Shown here piece by piece: positions 28,616-47,001 of a stretch of DNA of 47,624 nt. How positions within the stretch are numbered: the stretch's first letter is position 1; each line of letters opens with the position of its first letter. The DNA is from Candidatus Cloacimonadota bacterium. GTDB lineage: Bacteria; Cloacimonadota; Cloacimonadia; Cloacimonadales; TCS61. Below the pieces are notes generated by a model that saw only the letters and a program-made list of their open reading frames with translations, was not told the DNA's origin and searched no databases. The DNA is taken from contig JAUVLU010000019.1 in NCBI GenBank assembly GCA_030600585.1, forward strand, positions 1-47,624, in the 5' to 3' direction. A program made the translations under genes and the position numbers.

Positions 28616-29035
28616 CTAATTATTAATCGCAGTTACAATCTCGCAGTTCTGTCCTGTAAGTATTAATGTTGCCCTCACATTTTCGCTGCCGTCATTCCCA
28701 ATTGAATTTCCAATTCCTACAATAGTTAATATATCATCGGATAACGAAAATGTATAAGTTCCATTACTATTTGAGATCGAATTATTATCAGCATCATAAT
28801 TATAACCAAACCACATTCCCATTTTATCTACATCCCAGGTTCTATCTCCACCGCCCATATTAGCCGGGGTTTTGTAAAATGTGTTGGCTATTCCAGCGAA
28901 GATGTTCATGTCGGAGATAATTGACTGCCGATTGATCCTCGTCATCTCATGGATATAGATTGTAATCCCAACTGTAACTGAAATGCCGATAATAACAACA
29001 CTCAGAAATAACATTAGAACTTGTTGATATCCCAT
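28616..29035 (-). CDS. Pilin-like protein, tandem copy 2
   Basis: The 139-residue protein begins with a near-terminal helix (YQQVLMLFLSVVIIGISVTVGITIYIHEM). It continues with ISDMNIFAGIANTFYKTP, a GGGDRTWDVDKMGMWFGYNYD core and a Thr/Ser-rich beta tail. It is about 80% identical by eye to the next protein, so it is a recent duplicate. It lacks the classical prepilin peptidase site. It lies downstream of the PilT-like gene in the same direction, and its stop overlaps a relic of the barrel gene's 3' end on the other strand. Confidence 0.7.
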   Translation of the reverse strand: MGYQQVLMLFLSVVIIGISVTVGITIYIHEMTRINRQSIISDMNIFAGIANTFYKTPANMGGGDRTWDVDKMGMWFGYNYDADNNSISNSNGTYTFSLSDDILTIVGIGNSIGNDGSENVRATLILTGQNCEIVTAINN

Positions 29036-29148: not shown

Positions 29149-29568
29149 CTAATTATTAATTATCGTTACTATTCCGAAGTCCTGACCTGTTAAAGTTAAT
29201 GTTGCTTTTACATTTTCGCTGCCGTCATTTCCAATTGAAGTTCCAATTCCTACAATAGTTAATACATCATCGGATGACGAAAACACATAAGTTCCATTAC
29301 TATTTGAGATCGAATTATTAGCAGCATCATAATTATAACCAAACCACATTCCCATTCTATCTACATCCCAGGTTCTATCTCCTCCGCCCATACTTGCCGG
29401 AGTTTTATAATATGCATTGGCTACTCCTGCGAAGATGTTCATGTCGGAGATAATTGACTGACGATTGATACTCATCATATGCTGGGTAAACATTGTAAGC
29501 CCGACCGTAACAGAAAGACCGATTATGATCACAGCAAGAACTAACATTAAAATTTGTTGATATCCCAT
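29149..29568 (-). CDS. Pilin-like protein, tandem copy 1
   Basis: The 139-residue protein has the same design as its neighbour: helix YQQILMLVLAVIIIGLSVTVGLTMF, linker SINRQSIISDMNIFAGVANAYYKTP, and GGGDRTWDVDRMGMWFGYNYD. It starts 18 bp after the PilT-like gene and is probably co-transcribed with it. The conserved N-terminal helix would anchor the subunit or pack as a fibre core. The protein family is not one I can name. Confidence 0.72.
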   Translation of the reverse strand: MGYQQILMLVLAVIIIGLSVTVGLTMFTQHMMSINRQSIISDMNIFAGVANAYYKTPASMGGGDRTWDVDRMGMWFGYNYDAANNSISNSNGTYVFSSSDDVLTIVGIGTSIGNDGSENVKATLTLTGQDFGIVTIINN

Positions 29569-29586: not shown

Positions 29587-30804
29587 TTAAGTAGAATATT
29601 TCAAAAGATTAGACATCACCTTTTTATTATTACAATAATTCATTGCTGTTGCCATTGTGATAACACCAGCCTTGAAGAGTCTGTAAAGGTCTTGCTGCAT
29701 CGTAAACATTCCACTTATTTTTCCTTCGGTAAGCATCTGGTACAACTCAGTAATATTACCATTCCTAATGGCAGCCTGCACCGAATAATCCACTGATAAT
29801 ATTTCTTTTGCAAGTGTGAGATTATTCTGTTTATTTGGAACTAATTTCTGCGAAATGACTACTTTGAGCACATCTGCCAATCTGTATCGAATACGTTCCT
29901 GCTCATCCGGCGGAAATTCCGCAATGATGCGGTGAATACTATCGATAGTTGAACTTGTATGAAGAGTAGAAAATACTTTATGCCCGCTATCTGTAACTTC
30001 CAGAACTGTAGATATTGTTTTAGAATCCCGCATCTCACCCACAACGATAATGTCAGGGTCCTGCCGCAAAGCTTCAATTGCACCACTCTGGAAATCAAAT
30101 ACATCACTTCCAACTTCACGATGAGTTACAATGCTTTTATCAGAAGCATGAATAAATTCGATAGGATTACCAATAATAATTATGTGAGAATTATTATTAC
30201 GGTTATTCATATCTATAATTGCATCCAATGATGAGCTTTTACCGGAACCTGTTATTCCGGTTACCAGGAACAACCCGGATTTTTCATGTTGTAGATCTAA
30301 TCTCTTTACAATTAACTCAGGTATTCCCAGTTCATCCATGGTGAATAATTTCTGTTTTATAACACGCAAGTTTATCGCCAGGAAATTCCTTTCAAAAAAG
30401 ATATTCCCACGGAAACGGTATTTAGAGTTTGTTCCATCCAATTTTACAGATAATGCAAAATCAAGATTTTTATTTGTGATCAAGAGTTTTTTCTGATCAC
30501 TGGAAAGAATACTGAGTGCTATTGCAGTTGCTTCGTCTTCGAAAATATCTTCAACTTGTGGATTAGGTGTTTTATTACCATAAATCCGATACCAGATCTT
30601 GCCTTTAGACCGGGGACCGCCAAAATCCAAGTCGGAAGCATCTTTGGAAATCATTATTGTCAGTAATTTTTTTAGTAATTCAAAGGATTCATTCCTCCAT
30701 TTAGGATTCTCAGATATTGCTTTATTTATATATTTTACCCTGTTAATCCCAAAAACAAATTCAGGGATAGCAGCTTTAAGTTCTGATGAAAAAGACAAAC
30801 TCAT
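29587..30804 (-). CDS. PilT/PilB-family secretion ATPase
   Basis: The 405-residue protein is a type II/IV secretion ATPase closest in layout to PilT, the pilus retraction motor. Visible are an N-terminal domain (LLTIMISKDASDLDF), Walker A GITGSGKSS (183-191), Walker B IIVVGEMRD (251-259), the arginine-rich LREVG-like stretch (HREVGSDVF), and the His box STLHTSSTIDSIHRI. The usual EDPIE box reads GNPIE (211-215), losing its first acid, an odd change. The N terminus is longer than in ordinary PilT by about 45 residues. A strong AGGAGG lies upstream. No PilB, PilC, PilD or secretin genes are present. Confidence 0.85.
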   Translation of the reverse strand: MSLSFSSELKAAIPEFVFGINRVKYINKAISENPKWRNESFELLKKLLTIMISKDASDLDFGGPRSKGKIWYRIYGNKTPNPQVEDIFEDEATAIALSILSSDQKKLLITNKNLDFALSVKLDGTNSKYRFRGNIFFERNFLAINLRVIKQKLFTMDELGIPELIVKRLDLQHEKSGLFLVTGITGSGKSSSLDAIIDMNNRNNNSHIIIIGNPIEFIHASDKSIVTHREVGSDVFDFQSGAIEALRQDPDIIVVGEMRDSKTISTVLEVTDSGHKVFSTLHTSSTIDSIHRIIAEFPPDEQERIRYRLADVLKVVISQKLVPNKQNNLTLAKEILSVDYSVQAAIRNGNITELYQMLTEGKISGMFTMQQDLYRLFKAGVITMATAMNYCNNKKVMSNLLKYST

Positions 30805-33063: not shown

Positions 33064-33152
33064 AAAATAAAAGGTGCAAGCCGGAGCCTGCACCCTAATT
33101 TTTTGGTTTAAAACCTTGTTAACTTCTTGACACCAAAACCTGATTTTCTAAT
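33064..33152 (-). ncRNA. tracrRNA of the type II-C CRISPR system
   Basis: The minus strand carries a 26-nt perfect anti-repeat (33126-33151) complementary to positions 8-33 of the CRISPR repeat. The next bases, GAAGTTAAC, can pair GTT/AAC with the start of the repeat, leaving an internal loop, which gives the usual lower stem, bulge and upper stem. A small hairpin GGTTTTAAACC (33105-33115) follows, and a 9-bp terminator hairpin (GGTGCAGGC/GCTTGCACC, loop TCCG, 33073-33094) then TTTTATTTT. Predicted size is about 89 nt. It would pair with crRNA to load Cas9. Confidence 0.85.
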
Positions 33153-33154
33153 TT
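33127..33154 (+). promoter_or_regulatory. Predicted cas9 promoter inside the anti-repeat DNA
   Basis: On the plus strand, TTGACA (33127-33132) and TAATTT (33149-33154) are 16 bases apart. The -35 box is the same TTGACA found in every CRISPR repeat. It would start the cas9 transcript near 33161, giving a leader of about 56 nt. Confidence 0.5.
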
Positions 33155-33158
33155 CAAG

Positions 33159-33187
33159 ATATTAAAGTTTCAACCAAACGATGTCAA
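33159..33187 (-). promoter_or_regulatory. tracrRNA promoter (near consensus)
   Basis: Read on the minus strand, TTGACA (33182-33187) and TAATAT (33159-33164) are separated by exactly 17 bases. The expected start at about 33152 falls right at the first base before the anti-repeat. It overlaps the leader of cas9 and points away from it. Confidence 0.8.
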
Positions 33188-33216
33188 ATTTAGTAAATGA
33201 GACAAAAGGAGTCAAG

Positions 33217-36200
33217 ATGAAAAATTATCGACTTGGAATTGATCTCGGTGCAACTTCTCTTGGATGGAGTTTAATTGAGCTTGATAACAACAATGAACCG
33301 GTAAAATTAGAAAAGGTTGGAGTGCGCATTTTTCCGGATGGCAGAGATGCTAAATCTAAAGAACCATTGAATGTTACTCGTAGAATAGCTCGCGGAATTC
33401 GTAAAAATCGAGACAGGTATCTGCAAAGAAGAAATGATTTGATGGAATATCTGGTTGAAAATAATTTAATGCCAAAAGATATTACCGAAAGAAAAAAACT
33501 TGAACATCTTGATCCATATTATCTGCGCGCCAAAGGTTTAGATGAAAAACTAGAAATGTTTGAATTCGGTAGAGCTATTTTTCATTTGAACCAAAGAAGA
33601 GGATTTAAAAGTAATAGAAAGTTAGATGCACAAGATAATGAAACATCTGTGATGAAAAATGCAATTAAAGAATTAACGGAAAAACTGCAAGAAACAGATT
33701 CACGAACTCTCGGTGAATATCTTTATAATTTGAACAAAGATTTACCCAAAAAAGAAATCGTTAATAGTAAACCAATGAGAGTGAAGAAAGGTGACAAATC
33801 TTATAACTTCTTCCCCGACCGAACAATGTATCTTGATGAATTTGAGCAACTTTGGGAGAGACAACAGAAATTTCATCCTGAGCTAACAAATGAGATAAAA
33901 ACAGATATCGAAAATATTATATTCTATCAAAGACCACTTAAACCACAAGAGAAAGGAAGCTGCCGGTTTGAGGAAGGAGAATCCCGTTGTTCTTTCGCTT
34001 ATATTACAGCTCAAAAATTCCGTATCTTCCAAGAGCTTAACAATCTTGAATTATTAGATTTTGATAAGAAAAGCCATAAATTAACTGATGAACAACGAAC
34101 AATAATTTTGCGCGCATTGTTAACGCAAAAAACTGCGACATTCAAAGCCTTACGTAAAAAATTAGGAAAAGAATATGTAATGGATCATACATTCAATCTG
34201 GAAAGCGAAAAAAGAAAAGATTTGAAAGGTGATGAAACTTCTGCCGTAATGAGAAAAGATAATTACTTTGGTGATAAATGGGATGAACTGGCTGATACAG
34301 AAAAAGATGAGATAGTTACAAAAATCATGAATGAAGACAATGATAAAGAAATTGAAGCAAATCTCGTAAGTTGGCTTGAAAAAAAATATTCTCTGCCGGA
34401 AGAAAATGCTCAAAACATCGCAAATGCATCTCTTTCTAAAAAGATCAGCAATCTCAGCAGAAAAGCCATTTTAAAACTTTTACCATTCCTGCAAGATGGT
34501 CTTATCTATTCTGACGCATGTGAAAAAGCAGGTTATAAACTGACTGATGAAGCACCGGAAGAACCAAAATATTTTAAAGGTGATCTTCCATATTATGGAG
34601 AACTATTTGAGAAAGATGCGCTATTTGGCGACAAAACAGAACTCAATAAAAAATATCCCGAAAAATATTACGGCAAAATTCCCAATGTTACAGTTCATAT
34701 CGCCCTTAATCAATTGCGTAAATTTGTTAATGAACTTACACAAACTTACGGTGCACCAAAGCAGATCGTTTTGGAACTGGCAAGAGAACTCAAACTTGGT
34801 AGAAGTAAAGTTGCCGAGATCGAAAAAATTCAGGCAAAAAACAGAAAGAACAATGAAAACATTGCTGTAGAATTAGAGAAAATAGGAGTTGAAAATAATT
34901 ATACAAATAGAACAAAATACAAACTCTGGGAAGAACTTGATAGCGACCCAACCAAACGCTGCTGCCCTTTTTCCGGTATTCAAATTCCAATACATAAATT
35001 ATTTACACACGAATTTCAAATTGAACATATTCTGCCAAAATCTAAAACATTTAACGATAGGATGGTAAATAAAACAATTGCCCACAGAAAAGCAAACCAG
35101 GATAAAGGTGAACGAAGTCCGTTTGAAGCTTTCGGGCATGATCCAGCAGGATATAACTATAATGAAATTCTTGGAAGAGCAGAATATTTACCATTTGCTA
35201 AAAGAAAAAGATTCTTCCCCGATGCAATGAAATATTATGAAGATGAAGGAGAAGTTTTAAGCCGAATGCTTACGGATACGCAATACATGAGCAGAATTGC
35301 CAGAAAGTATATGGCTTTTGTCTGTGGGAAAAATAATGTCTGGTCAATTAATGGACAGCTTACCGCCAAGCTGAGATCAAAATGGGGACTGAATGAACTG
35401 CTTTCCGATGACAGCACAAAAAATCGTGCCGACCACCGTCATCACGCAGTCGATGCCTTTGTGGTTGCCTGCACTTCTCGTTCTACAATGCAGAAGGTAG
35501 CAAGAGCAATTGGCAATTCACGCGATAAATTCATCGATGAAATGTTACCGCCTTTTGAACAATTTAAACACAAAGAGATGAAACAATTACTCGATGATAT
35601 GGTCGTCTCTTTCAAGCCCGATCACGGAAATGCAAAAAAAGCAATTAGCGAACATAAAACAGTGGGACAACTTCACAAAGAAACCGCTTACGGTTTGGTT
35701 GGCAAAGATGAAAAAAAAGGAAAAATAATTCTCTCTGTGAGAAAGGAATTGGTAAGTTTAGACAGCGTTAAAAAAATTAAAGAAATTGCCGACCCGAGAA
35801 TTCGTGCAACTTTATTGCAGCTAACCGAAGGAAAAACAGGTAAAGAAATAACCGGAATTCTCTCTGAATACTCTAAAGAAACTGGTATTAAACGTGTTAA
35901 AATACAAATTGAAAAATCTTTAGATAGTGTTGTCAGAATTGAAGACAACCTGGGTAATTACAAATACTACGAGTTACGAAACAATTATTGTGCCGATATT
36001 TACTGTCCCGATAAAGGTAAAAAAACCGGCAAGTGGCAGATTGATATTATCCCGATGTTCTATGCTCATAAAGCTAATTTTACACCAAACTGGCAAAGAG
36101 AAAACCCAACTGCAAAAAAGATAATGCGGCTCTACATTAACGATACAGTTGCTTACGAAGAAAATGGTAAAACAGAAATCAGACGTTTGAAAAAAATGAC

Positions 36201-36363
36201 AGGTAACATAATTTATTTACGTGAAAATACAATTGCAAAAAAAGAAAAAGGTAAAGAAGATATTGGTGAACAATTTAGTCCTAATATCTTACAAAATAGA
36301 AACGCACGCAAAGTTGGAGTTGATATTTTGGGTAGAGTAAGCGACCCGAAAAAAGCAAAATGA
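33217..36363 (+). CDS. cas9: Cas9 endonuclease, type II-C
   Basis: The frame opens at 33181, but the ATG at 33217 has AAAAGGAG five bases upstream and begins exactly at the RuvC-I motif, so the protein has 1048 residues, normal for II-C. RuvC-I is LGIDLGATSLGW (D9), followed by an arginine-rich bridge helix (RRIARGIRKNRDRYLQRR). RuvC-II is IVLELARELK (E520). The HNH domain has FQIEHILPKSKTF (H604). RuvC-III is DHRHHAVDAFVVA (H742/H743, D746). All catalytic residues are present, so it should cut both strands of target DNA guided by crRNA and tracrRNA. The last codons overlap cas1 by four bases. Confidence 0.98.
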   Translation: MKNYRLGIDLGATSLGWSLIELDNNNEPVKLEKVGVRIFPDGRDAKSKEPLNVTRRIARGIRKNRDRYLQRRNDLMEYLVENNLMPKDITERKKLEHLDPYYLRAKGLDEKLEMFEFGRAIFHLNQRRGFKSNRKLDAQDNETSVMKNAIKELTEKLQETDSRTLGEYLYNLNKDLPKKEIVNSKPMRVKKGDKSYNFFPDRTMYLDEFEQLWERQQKFHPELTNEIKTDIENIIFYQRPLKPQEKGSCRFEEGESRCSFAYITAQKFRIFQELNNLELLDFDKKSHKLTDEQRTIILRALLTQKTATFKALRKKLGKEYVMDHTFNLESEKRKDLKGDETSAVMRKDNYFGDKWDELADTEKDEIVTKIMNEDNDKEIEANLVSWLEKKYSLPEENAQNIANASLSKKISNLSRKAILKLLPFLQDGLIYSDACEKAGYKLTDEAPEEPKYFKGDLPYYGELFEKDALFGDKTELNKKYPEKYYGKIPNVTVHIALNQLRKFVNELTQTYGAPKQIVLELARELKLGRSKVAEIEKIQAKNRKNNENIAVELEKIGVENNYTNRTKYKLWEELDSDPTKRCCPFSGIQIPIHKLFTHEFQIEHILPKSKTFNDRMVNKTIAHRKANQDKGERSPFEAFGHDPAGYNYNEILGRAEYLPFAKRKRFFPDAMKYYEDEGEVLSRMLTDTQYMSRIARKYMAFVCGKNNVWSINGQLTAKLRSKWGLNELLSDDSTKNRADHRHHAVDAFVVACTSRSTMQKVARAIGNSRDKFIDEMLPPFEQFKHKEMKQLLDDMVVSFKPDHGNAKKAISEHKTVGQLHKETAYGLVGKDEKKGKIILSVRKELVSLDSVKKIKEIADPRIRATLLQLTEGKTGKEITGILSEYSKETGIKRVKIQIEKSLDSVVRIEDNLGNYKYYELRNNYCADIYCPDKGKKTGKWQIDIIPMFYAHKANFTPNWQRENPTAKKIMRLYINDTVAYEENGKTEIRRLKKMTGNIIYLRENTIAKKEKGKEDIGEQFSPNILQNRNARKVGVDILGRVSDPKKAK

Positions 36364-37238
36364 AGATCGTTGAAATATCACAAAGCGGAGTACATTTAAA
36401 ACTTTACCGCGGTTTTATGTTGGTGTATAAAAGCGGTGAAGAGATCGGCAGAGAACCAATAGATGATATTGACTGCCTGCTTGTTTACGGTTATGGTGTA
36501 ACCTATTCTCATAATCTGTTGGTTAAGTTTTGTGAAGTGAATATTCCAATAATTCTTTGCAGTAATAATTTTATGCCGATTGGATTTGTAATGAGCACCA
36601 ATGTTAATTATGAAAGAAAAACCCGTCTTCAGGAACAAATTAATGTTACTCTTCCATTCTCTAAAAAGCTATGGCAAACCATTATCAAAGAGAAGGTACG
36701 TAATCAGCAAATCGTATTAGAAAATGCTGATGCAGAAGCAAAAGATTTTACCTATCTCATCGGTAAAGTAAGATCCGGCGATATTGATAATGTAGAAGCT
36801 GTTGCAGCGCGCAAGTATTGGAAGCGTTTGTTTGGTGAAGGTTTTAAAAGGGATTTTGATCTTGGGGGTATAAATAGCTTCTTAAATTTTGGTTATGCAA
36901 TTTTGCGAAGCTGCGTAGCTCGTTACTTAATTGCAACCGGCTTAGATGCTTCAATTGGTTTACATCACAAAAACAAATTGAATACTTTCTGTTTGGCAGA
37001 TGATATGATGGAACCTTTTCGCCCTTTTGTGGACAATAAAATATTAAAGATGAAAATATGCGATAAAGATGTGCTTTCTCCGAAATATAAAAAGGAACTT
37101 GCAGGTTTTCTCGATGATAGATTCTTAATGAAGTATGAACAATTATCATTACAAAATTGTATTAAAAAATCTGTTCTATCACTTCTCTCTTCATATCGTT
37201 CAAAACAAGATCATTTGAAATTCCCCGAGTTTAAATGA
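36360..37238 (+). CDS. cas1: CRISPR integrase Cas1 (type II)
   Basis: The 292-residue protein has the metal-binding triad of Cas1: E146 in NVEAVAARKYW, H202/H203 in GLHHKN and D215 in LADDMMEPFRPF. It inserts new spacers together with Cas2. It begins on the ATGA overlap with cas9 and overlaps cas2 in the same way, so the three genes are co-translated. It is intact. Confidence 0.97.
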   Translation: MKIVEISQSGVHLKLYRGFMLVYKSGEEIGREPIDDIDCLLVYGYGVTYSHNLLVKFCEVNIPIILCSNNFMPIGFVMSTNVNYERKTRLQEQINVTLPFSKKLWQTIIKEKVRNQQIVLENADAEAKDFTYLIGKVRSGDIDNVEAVAARKYWKRLFGEGFKRDFDLGGINSFLNFGYAILRSCVARYLIATGLDASIGLHHKNKLNTFCLADDMMEPFRPFVDNKILKMKICDKDVLSPKYKKELAGFLDDRFLMKYEQLSLQNCIKKSVLSLLSSYRSKQDHLKFPEFK

Positions 37239-37582
37239 TCAGCGGATTCCGATTGATGTGGATGATGGTTATGTTCGATCTTCCAGTGGTTGAGAAGAAA
37301 GACAGAAAAACTGCTTCCAGGTTTCGTAAATTGTTGCTCGATGAAGGTTTTGATATGTTCCAGTTCTCCGTTTATATGAAATTTTGCGGTACAAGAGAAA
37401 GAACAACCAAATATGTAAACACAATTAAAGATAAAGCACCTTCAAATGGAAAGGTCAGTATCTTGTTTTTTACCGATAAACAATTTGGAAATATTATAAA
37501 TATTTTCAACAGGGAGAGGTATGAATTGCCTAAAAGATCGGAGCAATATGTCCTTTTTGAAGACATTCTAACAGAAAATTGA
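37235..37582 (+). CDS. cas2: CRISPR-associated protein Cas2
   Basis: The 115-residue protein has the ferredoxin-like Cas2 fold: MWMMVMFDLPV with the conserved Asp, FRKLLLDEGFDMFQFSVYMKF, and a C-terminal strand SEQYVLFEDI. It overlaps cas1 by four bases. It forms the spacer integration complex with Cas1. No csn2 or cas4 follows, which defines the locus as II-C. Confidence 0.97.
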   Translation: MISGFRLMWMMVMFDLPVVEKKDRKTASRFRKLLLDEGFDMFQFSVYMKFCGTRERTTKYVNTIKDKAPSNGKVSILFFTDKQFGNIINIFNRERYELPKRSEQYVLFEDILTEN

Positions 37583-37589
37583 CAGGCAT

Positions 37590-37631
37590 ATTGAGTCAAA
37601 GCCCTTACTCGTAAGGGCTTATAAACTCAAT
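37590..37631. terminator. Long inverted repeat between cas2 and the CRISPR array
   Basis: ATTGAGT (37590-37596) pairs with ACTCAAT (37625-37631), and inside them AAGCCCTTA pairs with TAAGGGCTT around loop CTCG. It touches the first repeat base. As cas genes and crRNAs converge here, it may end both transcripts. There is no long T run, so it could also be an RNA-end or processing signal. Confidence 0.6.
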
Positions 37632-38855
37632 ACTTTAGAAAATCAGGTTTTGGTGTCAAGTCGCAACTAATGACTGTGAATTAGGAGTCATGCCAAAACT
37701 TTAGAAAATCAGGTTTTGGTGTCAAGTCGCAACCATTCTCAGTTTGATAGTATTCTTTCATTTACTTTAGAAAATCAGGTTTTGGTGTCAAGTCGCAACC
37801 GGCGGTATCTTTGTTCCGGGAGAAGAGACACTTTAGAAAATCAGGTTTTGGTGTCAAGTCGCAACTTATCCTAACAGCTATATCCTTTTCAGCTTACTTT
37901 AGAAAATCAGGTTTTGGTGTCAAGTCGCAACAACACAACCAACAAACTTGACGATAAGCTTACTTTAGAAAATCAGGTTTTGGTGTCAAGTCGCAACACA
38001 TCGTGCCTGCACGTGCTCGCAAGCAGTACTTTAGAAAATCAGGTTTTGGTGTCAAGTCGCAACTCTGGCTTTACAAGTGAGTTTTATATGATTACTTTAG
38101 AAAATCAGGTTTTGGTGTCAAGTCGCAACGCAGCCAAAGCTCCCAAGCACGGAAAATATACTTTAGAAAATCAGGTTTTGGTGTCAAGTCGCAACCTTCC
38201 GGTGCTGATACTCGCTCTAGTGATAACTTTAGAAAATCAGGTTTTGGTGTCAAGTCGCAACTTACTCTGGAGATCATTATCAATGTTAGAAACTTTAGAA
38301 AATCAGGTTTTGGTGTCAAGTCGCAACACCTGGTCTGCAAAGGTGTCAGCGATGTCGACTTTAGAAAATCAGGTTTTGGTGTCAAGTCGCAACAACAGCT
38401 TGATACAGTCTCAAAACGTCTGTACTTTAGAAAATCAGGTTTTGGTGTCAAGTCGCAACAGATAGAACATGGAAGAGAAGGACTGTTGTACTTTAGAAAA
38501 TCAGGTTTTGGTGTCAAGTCGCAACACGCTTGATCAGCAAGCGAAGTATTTGGAAACTTTAGAAAATCAGGTTTTGGTGTCAAGTCGCAACTTTGTTTTA
38601 TATCGATGGTCACAAGTTTGAACTTTAGAAAATCAGGTTTTGGTGTCAAGTCGCAACTGATTTTGTTAATTTCATTTAATTCTCCCTACTTTAGAAAATC
38701 AGGTTTTGGTGTCAAGTCGCAACTCGAGCCGGCTGAACTGAACTATATGATGCACTTTAGAAAATCAGGTTTTGGTGTCAAGTCGCAACTTAGTCGTACT
38801 AATGCTCTTTATGAGCTTTACTTTAGAAAATCAGGTTTTGGTGTCAAGTCGCAAC
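37632..38855 (-). CRISPR. Type II-C CRISPR array, 19 repeats and 18 spacers
   Basis: Nineteen 36-bp repeats occur every 66 bp without change, so each of the 18 spacers is exactly 30 bp. On the minus strand the repeat begins GTTGCGACTTGACACC and ends TTTTCTAAAGT. The minus strand is the crRNA strand because the tracrRNA, whose strand is set by its promoter and terminator, pairs with it. All repeats look identical by eye at both ends. The spacers show no obvious match to other parts of the window. TTGACA and TAAAGT in each repeat could form a promoter. Confidence 0.98.
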
Positions 38856-38856
38856 T

Positions 38857-39151
38857 ATATTGGGATGTATGGTTTATCGAATTTATATTAAAATCAATTC
38901 GAGATGAATTAATTGTCGGTATAAATGACGGTATAAGTGTCGGTATAAAATTATCAAAAACTGAACATCTCGTTTTAAAAGAAATTGAGATAGATAATAA
39001 TATTACTGCTATTTTATTGGCAGAAAAAACAGGGAAATCAGTTAGAACTATTGAGAGAATCATAAAAAAACTACGCGAAAACCATATTATTAATCGAGAA
39101 GGTTCAAGAAAATCAGGACATTGGGTTTTAATGAAAGATAATAAACGGTAA
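38857..39151 (+). pseudogene. Truncated C-terminal winged-helix fragment of an AlbA_2/ATP-binding-type regulator
   Basis: The bases after the last repeat encode FIEFILKSIRDELIVGINDGISVGIKLS, then a helix-turn-helix (NNITAILLAEKTGKSVRTIERIIKKLRENHIINREGSRKSGHWVLM). This is the usual C-terminal tail of AlbA_2/Schlafen-related regulators, including the VGIN/VGI repeat. The frame has no start codon; it only stays open because it continues into the CRISPR repeats. The array or its insertion has removed the front of the gene. It occupies the place where a CRISPR leader would be expected. Confidence 0.7.
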
Positions 39152-39180: not shown

Positions 39181-39238
39181 AACCCTGAAAAAGTCAATTA
39201 CAAGAATTTAAAAAAAGAGACTTTTTCAGGGTTATTTT
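39181..39238 (+). terminator. Long hairpin after the truncated regulator
   Basis: AACCCTGAAAAAGTC (39181-39195) is the exact complement of GACTTTTTCAGGGTT (39219-39233), with a 23-nt AT-rich loop and then ATTTT. It may serve as terminator for either strand. Confidence 0.6.
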
Positions 39239-39483: not shown

Positions 39484-41433
39484 CTACGAGTTTATTTTGT
39501 CTTTATACTTTTTTGTTAAGAATCTGAAATTTCCTTTTCGCAGTGTGATGTTTTCACTATCGAAGAATTCGAGCAGGATCATGGCAGTACCGCGGTTCGT
39601 ATTAAGCAGATCACGCAATTGCGACACTTTAATGCCTTCGGTTGTTTCTATAAGTCGTTCAACTATTATTTTCTTTGCTTCTTCTACAAACTCAGAATGA
39701 AAATACTTCTGCTGGAGGAAGTAGATATTCCCATTATCAATCAGGTAGGATATTATTTGCTCCATTTGTTTTTTAGATATATTTTCATCGACCGCCAGAT
39801 CATTCAATTCGACAGGATCGACTGCGTTATTACCTTTCGATCTTATCAATTTATCGGTTTTCTCGATCATTGTTTTTATCTCATTACTCAGTTTAACTTC
39901 GTGAGAAGCTATAACCCAGGTTTTTCCCTCTTTTCTGAGCTTTGCTTTATCTTCCAAATTCTGTAATATCTGAGTTAACGTGATCTTTGTTACTTGCGTT
40001 TGATCTTCTCCAAAAATTCCCATTAATTCCTTAAATGTTATACCGTTATTTTTTAAGGGATTCTTCTGATGAAAATTTATTAATCCTGTAAGAATTTTAT
40101 TTTGATAAGCAGTATTCATTTTCTTATTTAATAAAATTGTTTCATCATCAGATTGGTAGAAAACTATATCTTCCGGTAATTTTTGGAATATTATTTCGAT
40201 AAGGTCATCAGGTGGCACATCAAGATATTCTGCGATAGTTTTCTGTGAAATTGGCAGTGCGGATTTCCGTACTTCTGCAGCAACCATTTCTTCCAGTTCG
40301 CCACTTGCAATTTTCTTCACGATCTCTACCTGTGTTTCTCTTCTGCGGCGATGATGCAGAGGGTACGGATCTACCACATAACCTCCGCCCAACGTGAGAT
40401 TACCGGATGAATTACGAATAATGAATTTATCGTTATATTGTGTAATTATGGGATGTGGTAGATACACTTGCGCCAGACAACTTTCACCACTTTTTAAGTG
40501 ATCTTTATCCAGCAAGTGTATCCGCACCATTATGCGATTTGTTCCCAATAAAAAAATTACCTGATTCCATAATCCCAAAGTAACATCATTTTGATATATA
40601 CTCAGTTTAATATCAATCAGTTTAGTCGATTTTATCTTTTTATTAGAGAGTACCATTCCGTGTTTAAAATCTTTCTGTTTAAAACCAACCAAATTGAATG
40701 ACGCTCGATCTCCGGCACTAACTTGAGAAACTTCTTTGCCATGATGTTCCAACCTTCTAATTCTCAATTCCTTTTCATTGGGAAGCAGATAAACCGTCTC
40801 ATTTTTCGAGATCATACCCGAGATTATCGATCCGTTCACAATAGTGCCAAAGCCTTCTCGGGTAAAAATGCGATCGATGTACATGCGGAAAAGACCTTCT
40901 GTTTTCCTTTGTGGAACGGAATCAACCAGAGTTGATATTTCATTTATGAGTTCTTCTATTCCCTGCTTTGTTTGGGATGAAACTTTAATTATGGAAGCAT
41001 CTTGTAAAAATGAATTTTTTACAAAATCCATAATTTCTTCGGTAGCAAGTTCTAAAAGTTCTTCATCTACGAGATCAATTTTTGTTAGAACGATCATTCC
41101 TTTTGTAATTCCAAGAGTTTTCATGATCTCAAGATGTTCTTTTGTCTGCGGCATTATTCCTTCGTCAGCGGCGATAACAAGAAGCACAAAATCAATTCCG
41201 CACGCTCCGGCTACCATTGTCTTTATAAAATCCGCATGTCCGGGCACATCCACGATTCCCACACTATTTCCGTTCGGAAGATCGATATGCGAAAATCCCA
41301 GATTAATTGTGATGCCGCGTTCTTTTTCTTGTTTATGTGTATCGCAATCGTAACCTGTGAGTGCTTTTATCAGTGTTGTTTTGCCATGATCTACATGTCC
41401 GGCAGTCCCCATTATCAAGTGTTTAGTTTCCAT
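39484..41433 (-). CDS. selB: Selenocysteine-specific translation elongation factor SelB
   Basis: The 649-residue protein has the GTPase domain of SelB: GHVDHGKT (12-19), the switch region ERGITINLGF, DVPGHADF (62-69) and TKID (117-120). Domains II and III follow, then a C-terminal winged-helix part (about 400-649; KISQ-like VSQLRDLLNTNRGTAMILLEFFDSENITLRKGNFRFL). It brings Sec-tRNA to UGA codons marked by a SECIS hairpin. A tRNA-Sec gene lies 139 bp away on the opposite strand. The start has AAGGAAT upstream. Confidence 0.96.
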   Translation of the reverse strand: METKHLIMGTAGHVDHGKTTLIKALTGYDCDTHKQEKERGITINLGFSHIDLPNGNSVGIVDVPGHADFIKTMVAGACGIDFVLLVIAADEGIMPQTKEHLEIMKTLGITKGMIVLTKIDLVDEELLELATEEIMDFVKNSFLQDASIIKVSSQTKQGIEELINEISTLVDSVPQRKTEGLFRMYIDRIFTREGFGTIVNGSIISGMISKNETVYLLPNEKELRIRRLEHHGKEVSQVSAGDRASFNLVGFKQKDFKHGMVLSNKKIKSTKLIDIKLSIYQNDVTLGLWNQVIFLLGTNRIMVRIHLLDKDHLKSGESCLAQVYLPHPIITQYNDKFIIRNSSGNLTLGGGYVVDPYPLHHRRRRETQVEIVKKIASGELEEMVAAEVRKSALPISQKTIAEYLDVPPDDLIEIIFQKLPEDIVFYQSDDETILLNKKMNTAYQNKILTGLINFHQKNPLKNNGITFKELMGIFGEDQTQVTKITLTQILQNLEDKAKLRKEGKTWVIASHEVKLSNEIKTMIEKTDKLIRSKGNNAVDPVELNDLAVDENISKKQMEQIISYLIDNGNIYFLQQKYFHSEFVEEAKKIIVERLIETTEGIKVSQLRDLLNTNRGTAMILLEFFDSENITLRKGNFRFLTKKYKDKINS

Positions 41434-41572: not shown

Positions 41573-41667
41573 AGAGAGGACGGAACTGGTGTTCCAACTG
41601 GTCTTCAAAACCAGTAATAGGCAGCTAAAACTGTTTACGGCAGGTTCGATCCCTGCCCTCTCGGCCA
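41573..41667 (+). tRNA. selC: tRNA-Sec (anticodon TCA)
   Basis: The anticodon loop CTTCAAA flanked by CTGGT/ACCAG carries TCA, which reads UGA. The D-stem is GGAAC/GTTCC. A long variable arm (TAGGCAG/CTGTTTA with G-T pairs, loop CTAAAA) and a T-arm GCAGGTTCGATCCCTGC match a selenocysteine tRNA. GCCA ends the gene. The acceptor is odd: only GAGAGG/CCTCTC pairs cleanly and the first base is A, not G, so the 5' end is placed by fit. SelB next door supports the call. Confidence 0.9.
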
Positions 41668-46925: not shown

Positions 46926-47001
46926 TGCCGACATGGCTCAACGGTAGAGCACTCGACTTGTAATCGAGCGGTTGTGGGTTCGATTCCTACTGTCGGCACC
47001 A
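46926..47001 (+). tRNA. tRNA-Thr (anticodon TGT)
   Basis: Acceptor GCCGACA pairs with TGTCGGC. Anticodon stem CTCGA/TCGAG holds loop CTTGTAA (TGT). CCA is encoded. It is the first of four tRNAs ahead of tuf. Confidence 0.97.

Follow-up and report, generated by a model that had tools for sequence, protein, structure and literature searches.

In the 47,624-nt window (the whole stretch of DNA that was analysed), a type II-C CRISPR locus very likely carries, in each repeat of its array, a complete sigma-70 promoter of the type found in front of the host's tRNA genes (TTGACA, an A-rich spacer and an AT-rich -10), and the guide RNAs are probably transcribed one by one. On the minus strand, each 30-nt spacer would hold an RNA polymerase start site about 7 nt from its beginning, and the 5' end of a guide of about 24 nt would be made by transcription; the downstream repeat would pair with the tracrRNA, and RNase III would probably trim the 3' end of the crRNA. 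New spacers would join on the side of cas2, which lies downstream of transcription, and each new unit would thus bring its own promoter. The genome is a 2.58-Mb draft from the phylum Cloacimonadota, and shares its genus with Candidatus Tenebribacter burtonii.

Two promoter-like boxes in the repeat

The array, and the predicted promoter in the repeat copy nearest to cas2, are as follows:

37632..38855, minus strand (crRNA sense): CRISPR array with a 36-nt repeat in 19 identical copies, 18 spacers of 30 nt and a 66-nt period
37632..37659, minus strand: predicted promoter in the cas2-side repeat copy, with TTGACA at 37659-37654, TAAAGT at 37637-37632 and a predicted start at about 37625; each of the 19 copies has it, at 66-nt intervals

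The minus-strand sequence of the repeat is GTTGCGACTTGACACCAAAACCTGATTTTCTAAAGT, in which TTGACA occupies positions 9-14 and TAAAGT positions 31-36, separated by 16 bases; the boxes, like the whole repeat, are exact in 19 of 19 copies, and the preliminary description had given these coordinates and boxes correctly. It had also credited TAAAGT, the TAnnnT -10-like hexamer at the 3' end of the repeat on the crRNA strand, with T1, A2 and T6 of the -10 consensus; these are indeed kept, but the count was too low, as A4 is kept as well (four matches in six). Repeat bases 28-30 are TTC, and hence there is no TGn of an extended -10. The minus strand was set as the crRNA strand by the anti-repeat of the tracrRNA candidate (see below); a search for protospacers that would confirm the orientation through a PAM gave no match in phages, nor, for three of the spacers, in viral contigs.

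In shuffles of the repeat, TTGACA falls in register by chance in 0.17%, and TTGACA together with a terminal TAnnnT in 0.004%. The pattern TTGACA-N15-18-TANNNT was found 23 times in the 47.6 kb, against 3.7 expected; 19 of the 23 are the repeats, and of the other four, one is at a tRNA operon, one precedes cas9 and one precedes the tracrRNA. Genome-wide, however, the pattern is not enriched (119 occurrences, the 19 repeats included, against 167 for the reversed pattern). The pair of boxes alone is therefore weak evidence, and a matrix derived from the tRNA promoters of the host is the stronger test.

Promoters of the host and of related loci

Regions 2.4 and 4.2 of the host RpoD, the boundaries of which we take to be those of established knowledge, are canonical, and promoters of the TTGACA/TATAAT type are therefore expected in this organism. 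A TTGAC-like box is present 36-69 nt upstream of 18 of the 22 leading tRNA genes of the genome, and after it come an A-rich stretch and then an AT-rich -10; this shows that the host uses a -35 of the TTGACA type. Plain TATAAT scoring of the tRNA upstream regions gave no separation from shuffles and was abandoned; the host -10 is loose and alignment on TTGACA is needed. More generally, Cloacimonadota tRNA promoters (L126-L155 in the array's own genome, and those of G066 and G112) combine a TTGACA that is almost perfect, some 40 nt ahead of the tRNA, with a very loose -10, which is why standard TATAAT scoring misses them.

The likeness between repeat and tRNA promoters goes beyond the -35. A residues at both +9 and +10 are found in 14 of 16 tRNA-promoter boxes versus 23 of 108 other TTGACA sites, and the repeat columns after TTGACA fit the tRNA promoters better than 95% of the other TTGACA sites; the repeat, TTGACACCAAAACCTGATTTTCTAAAGT, is very similar to the promoter of tRNA-Phe, TTGACACAAAAACCCGATTTTTTG. 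A weight matrix was trained on 14 tRNA promoters of the same genome, none of them from the window, and 95,194 positions were scored with it. The highest scores in the window were those of the anti-repeat read toward cas9 (21.4) and then of the 19 repeats (18.1), followed by the three sites listed below, among them the tRNA-Lys promoter of the window (16.5). The promoter that had earlier been proposed for each repeat along the crRNA strand is supported, together with its predicted start and guide length. The top sites outside the array, 33127 (discussed below) and the three that follow, all lie between genes and point in the right direction:

16875: 108 nt before an ORF
32783: tRNA-Lys promoter
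46804: before the tRNA cluster at 46927

On the crRNA strand, no leader promoter was detected upstream of the array, the best matrix score there being 2.2. Six arrays, of relatives and of plasmid loci used for comparison, show terminal repeat degeneration, in each case at the cas2-distal (5') end; in the window array, all repeats are identical. Published type II-C acquisition is at the 3' end (PMC12638026, PMC12080349). Since the degenerate end is cas2-distal, acquisition here too would probably be on the side of cas2, where crRNA transcription has its 3' end and from where a leader could not drive the array.

The comparison covered nine Cloacimonadota loci, the Cas9 proteins of which are about 42-100% identical. 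TTGACA is kept in eight of them and is TTGACG in the ninth (G016); in the -10, T36 is present throughout, whereas T31 and A32 are each found in seven loci, the hexamer dropping to TGATTT, TGATAT, AAAATT or AAAGAT. A near-invariant block, CTTGACACCAAA, extends past the -35 and is equally kept in the anti-repeats, even of divergent loci, and a second constraint on it, pairing or Cas9 recognition, is therefore likely. In the extreme, TTGACA would be kept only for the reading of positions 8-19 by Cas9 or for the repeat:anti-repeat stem, its likeness to a -35 would be incidental, and the array would be transcribed from a promoter outside it and then processed by RNase III, an enzyme that is present. 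The length and spread of the block are in line with this explanation, as is TGGACC at the same place in alphaproteobacterial relatives. Pairing alone, however, would permit compensated changes, which are seen within positions 20-33 and not at 9-14; moreover, the columns past the -35 also match the tRNA promoters of the window's own genome, no upstream promoter of the tRNA type was found, and a perfect 15-bp inverted repeat separates selB from the array. We thus regard an exclusive role in recognition or pairing as unlikely, and favor a promoter in each repeat.

In two distant relatives, tRNA promoters also have TTGACA (10 of 12 in G066 and 10 of 14 in G112). In both, the repeat is near the top of the scores of its locus from TTGACA only, the rest adding nothing, and their tRNA promoters do not share the nnAA feature. 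A TTGACAnnAAA grammar was accordingly rejected as a phylum-wide trait: TTGACA is phylum-wide, the A-tract is not. Because the rest of the repeat is unlike the tRNA promoters in G066 and G112, the promoter reading is strongest in the array's own genus and family, and elsewhere draws only on the -35.

cas genes, tracrRNA and flanks of the array

The following features surround the array:

33181..36363, plus strand: cas9 (type II-C), 1060 aa as listed; TIGR01865 (E 8.9e-186), PF13395, PF18541
36360..37238, plus strand: cas1; TIGR03639 cas1_NMENI (E 2.1e-77)
37235..37582, plus strand: cas2; TIGR01573
33126..33151, minus strand: tracrRNA anti-repeat, pairing with repeat positions 8-33 (26 of 26 nt, no mismatch)
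33068..33158, minus strand: tracrRNA candidate with anti-repeat, nexus-like hairpin and terminator hairpin; fold z-score -4.06
33159..33187, minus strand: predicted tracrRNA promoter, TTGACA-N17-TAATAT; matrix score 10.3
33127..33154, plus strand: predicted cas9 promoter, the anti-repeat DNA read toward cas9, TTGACA-N16-TAATTT; the window's best matrix score (21.4)
37590..37631, minus strand: stable hairpin directly adjoining the cas2-side repeat, at the 3' end of crRNA transcription; z-score -6.29

Among the ORFs around the locus only cas9, cas1 and cas2 were found, and csn2 and cas4 are absent; with the array, this gene content makes the locus type II-C. Cas9 has RuvC and HNH domains and, at 1060 aa, is within the type II-C range of about 1000-1100 aa; to judge from the conserved AAAGGAG that precedes it, a start at 33217 is more likely than one at 33181.

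The repeat and the anti-repeat co-fold as a 26-bp duplex, and the terminator hairpin of the tracrRNA candidate, GGTGCAGGCTCCGGCTTGCACC at 33094-33073, is kept in sequence in the relatives. The preliminary description had guides arising without RNase III cutting; this part is not upheld, given the 26-bp duplex, the RNase III gene (rnc) in the genome and the situation in C. jejuni, in which crRNAs start inside the spacer, at position 5 by dRNA-seq, but their 3' end is still generated by RNase III (PMC3656092).

Read in the opposite direction, the anti-repeat DNA is probably the cas9 promoter. L055, L058 and L040 have a shorter anti-repeat and a different -10 in the repeat itself, yet TAATTW is kept at N15-16 toward cas9, which argues for a real promoter. 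The predicted tracrRNA promoter (33187-33159, minus strand) overlaps the predicted cas9 promoter face to face, from which we infer that transcription of cas9 and of the tracrRNA would be mutually exclusive. For an anti-repeat acting as a cas9 promoter nothing relevant was found in the open-access literature; such a role, if true, would tie the output of Cas9, tracrRNA and crRNA to one sequence.

Hairpins are predicted at the place of the 37590-37631 hairpin in related loci as well, with differing sequences, the weakest in L058; the structure is a probable terminator, possibly bidirectional, and/or an adaptation leader. It also bears on whether the array could be read from the opposite strand, in the cas direction, by transcription from the cas operon or from the short gap between cas2 and the array. 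The cas genes do point in that direction, and the putative acquisition end adjoins cas2. But the tracrRNA candidate would then be on the wrong strand, the stable hairpin stands between cas2 and the first repeat, and no promoter in the gap scores above -1.9; transcription in the cas direction is thus very improbable, and the minus strand is retained for the crRNAs.

At the distal end of the array, the C-terminal remnant of a winged-helix (HTH_24) protein (38856-39151), which has distant homologues in other Cloacimonadota, runs straight into the last repeat, and no leader-like sequence was found in this interval. The 15-bp inverted repeat (39181-39233, with a 23-nt loop) possibly insulates the array from selB read-through. 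The selB gene is at 39484-41433 and a tRNA-Sec gene at 41574-41662, and the organism probably makes selenoproteins. Elsewhere in the window, two closely similar pilin-like proteins are encoded in tandem (28616-29035 and 29149-29568) beside a PilT/PilB-like ATPase (29587-30804), to judge from the ORF translations.

Relation to known type II-C systems

In N. meningitidis, crRNA transcription begins a few nt inside the spacer, and the likeness to a type II-C promoter-in-repeat arrangement pointed out in the preliminary description fits, such systems being known from Neisseria and Campylobacter. With these the locus shares the gene order cas9-cas1-cas2, with the array convergent with the cas genes (PMC3656092, PMC4607530, PMC12080349), a -10-like hexamer formed by the last six repeat bases and a start, predicted here, a few nt into the spacer, and probably also acquisition at the 3' end (PMC12080349). 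Published type II-C repeats end in gnTAnaaT (PMC4607530). That the whole promoter lies inside the repeat, which had been put forward as the peculiarity of this array, is not new as such, as the -10 of Neisseria and Campylobacter is also at the very end of the repeat and any -35 would be inside too. What does set it apart is a consensus -35 in place of the extended -10: the Neisseria and Campylobacter repeats have TGn before TAnaaT and no -35, whereas this locus has a perfect TTGACA and no TGn. The TGn is a mark of the Neisseria-like variant and does not define promoter-in-repeat systems in general.

An upstream promoter element of the host type inside the repeat is shared with the type II-C systems of Flavobacterium columnare and F. 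psychrophilum (PMC8092290, PMC10309648). The putative TTG element at -33 of the F. columnare repeats (PMC8092290), which is of the Flavobacterium type, is a partial precedent; it has thin transcript support, whereas the present repeat has a full sigma-70 -35 that the tRNA promoters of its host match. Alphaproteobacterial type II-C repeats (Dinoroseobacter shibae, Azospirillum, Sphingobium) have the same layout, GTTGC-GC-TGGACC-N16-TAnnnT, also without TGn; their -35 is weaker (four of six) and their -10 as strong or stronger, and the Cas9 proteins of the plasmid-borne relatives are only about 35-39% identical.

TGn before the -10 goes with at most three of six -35 matches in the published type II-C repeats and in those of the Subdoligranulum, Ilyobacter, Tistrella and Pigmentibacter plasmids. 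Repeats without TGn match the -35 at four to six positions in Cloacimonadota, D. shibae, Azospirillum and Sphingobium, and at three in Limnohabitans. Over 22 repeats, -35 and -10 match counts are inversely related (Spearman -0.62), a correlation confounded by clade that serves as a hypothesis only. Type II-C repeats look like two promoter designs, in a split that follows clades and is not independent evidence.

No report of TTGACA in connection with CRISPR repeats was found in the open-access literature. While repeat promoters are already known in type II-C, a repeat with a full -35, reused ahead of cas9, appears to be new. At its fullest, our account has one sequence doing three jobs in this clade, as the crRNA promoter in the array, as the anti-repeat that pairs with the crRNA and, reversed, as a cas9 promoter that faces and excludes that of the tracrRNA, with type II-C repeats falling into -35 dependent and extended -10 designs that trade strength between the boxes; for this account as a whole, we judge the case to be evenly balanced. 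From the comparison, it seems that type II-C repeats take on the promoter grammar of the host, an extended -10 in some hosts and a full -35 in others, which, if true, would help to explain how far arrays transfer between hosts and which hosts express them.
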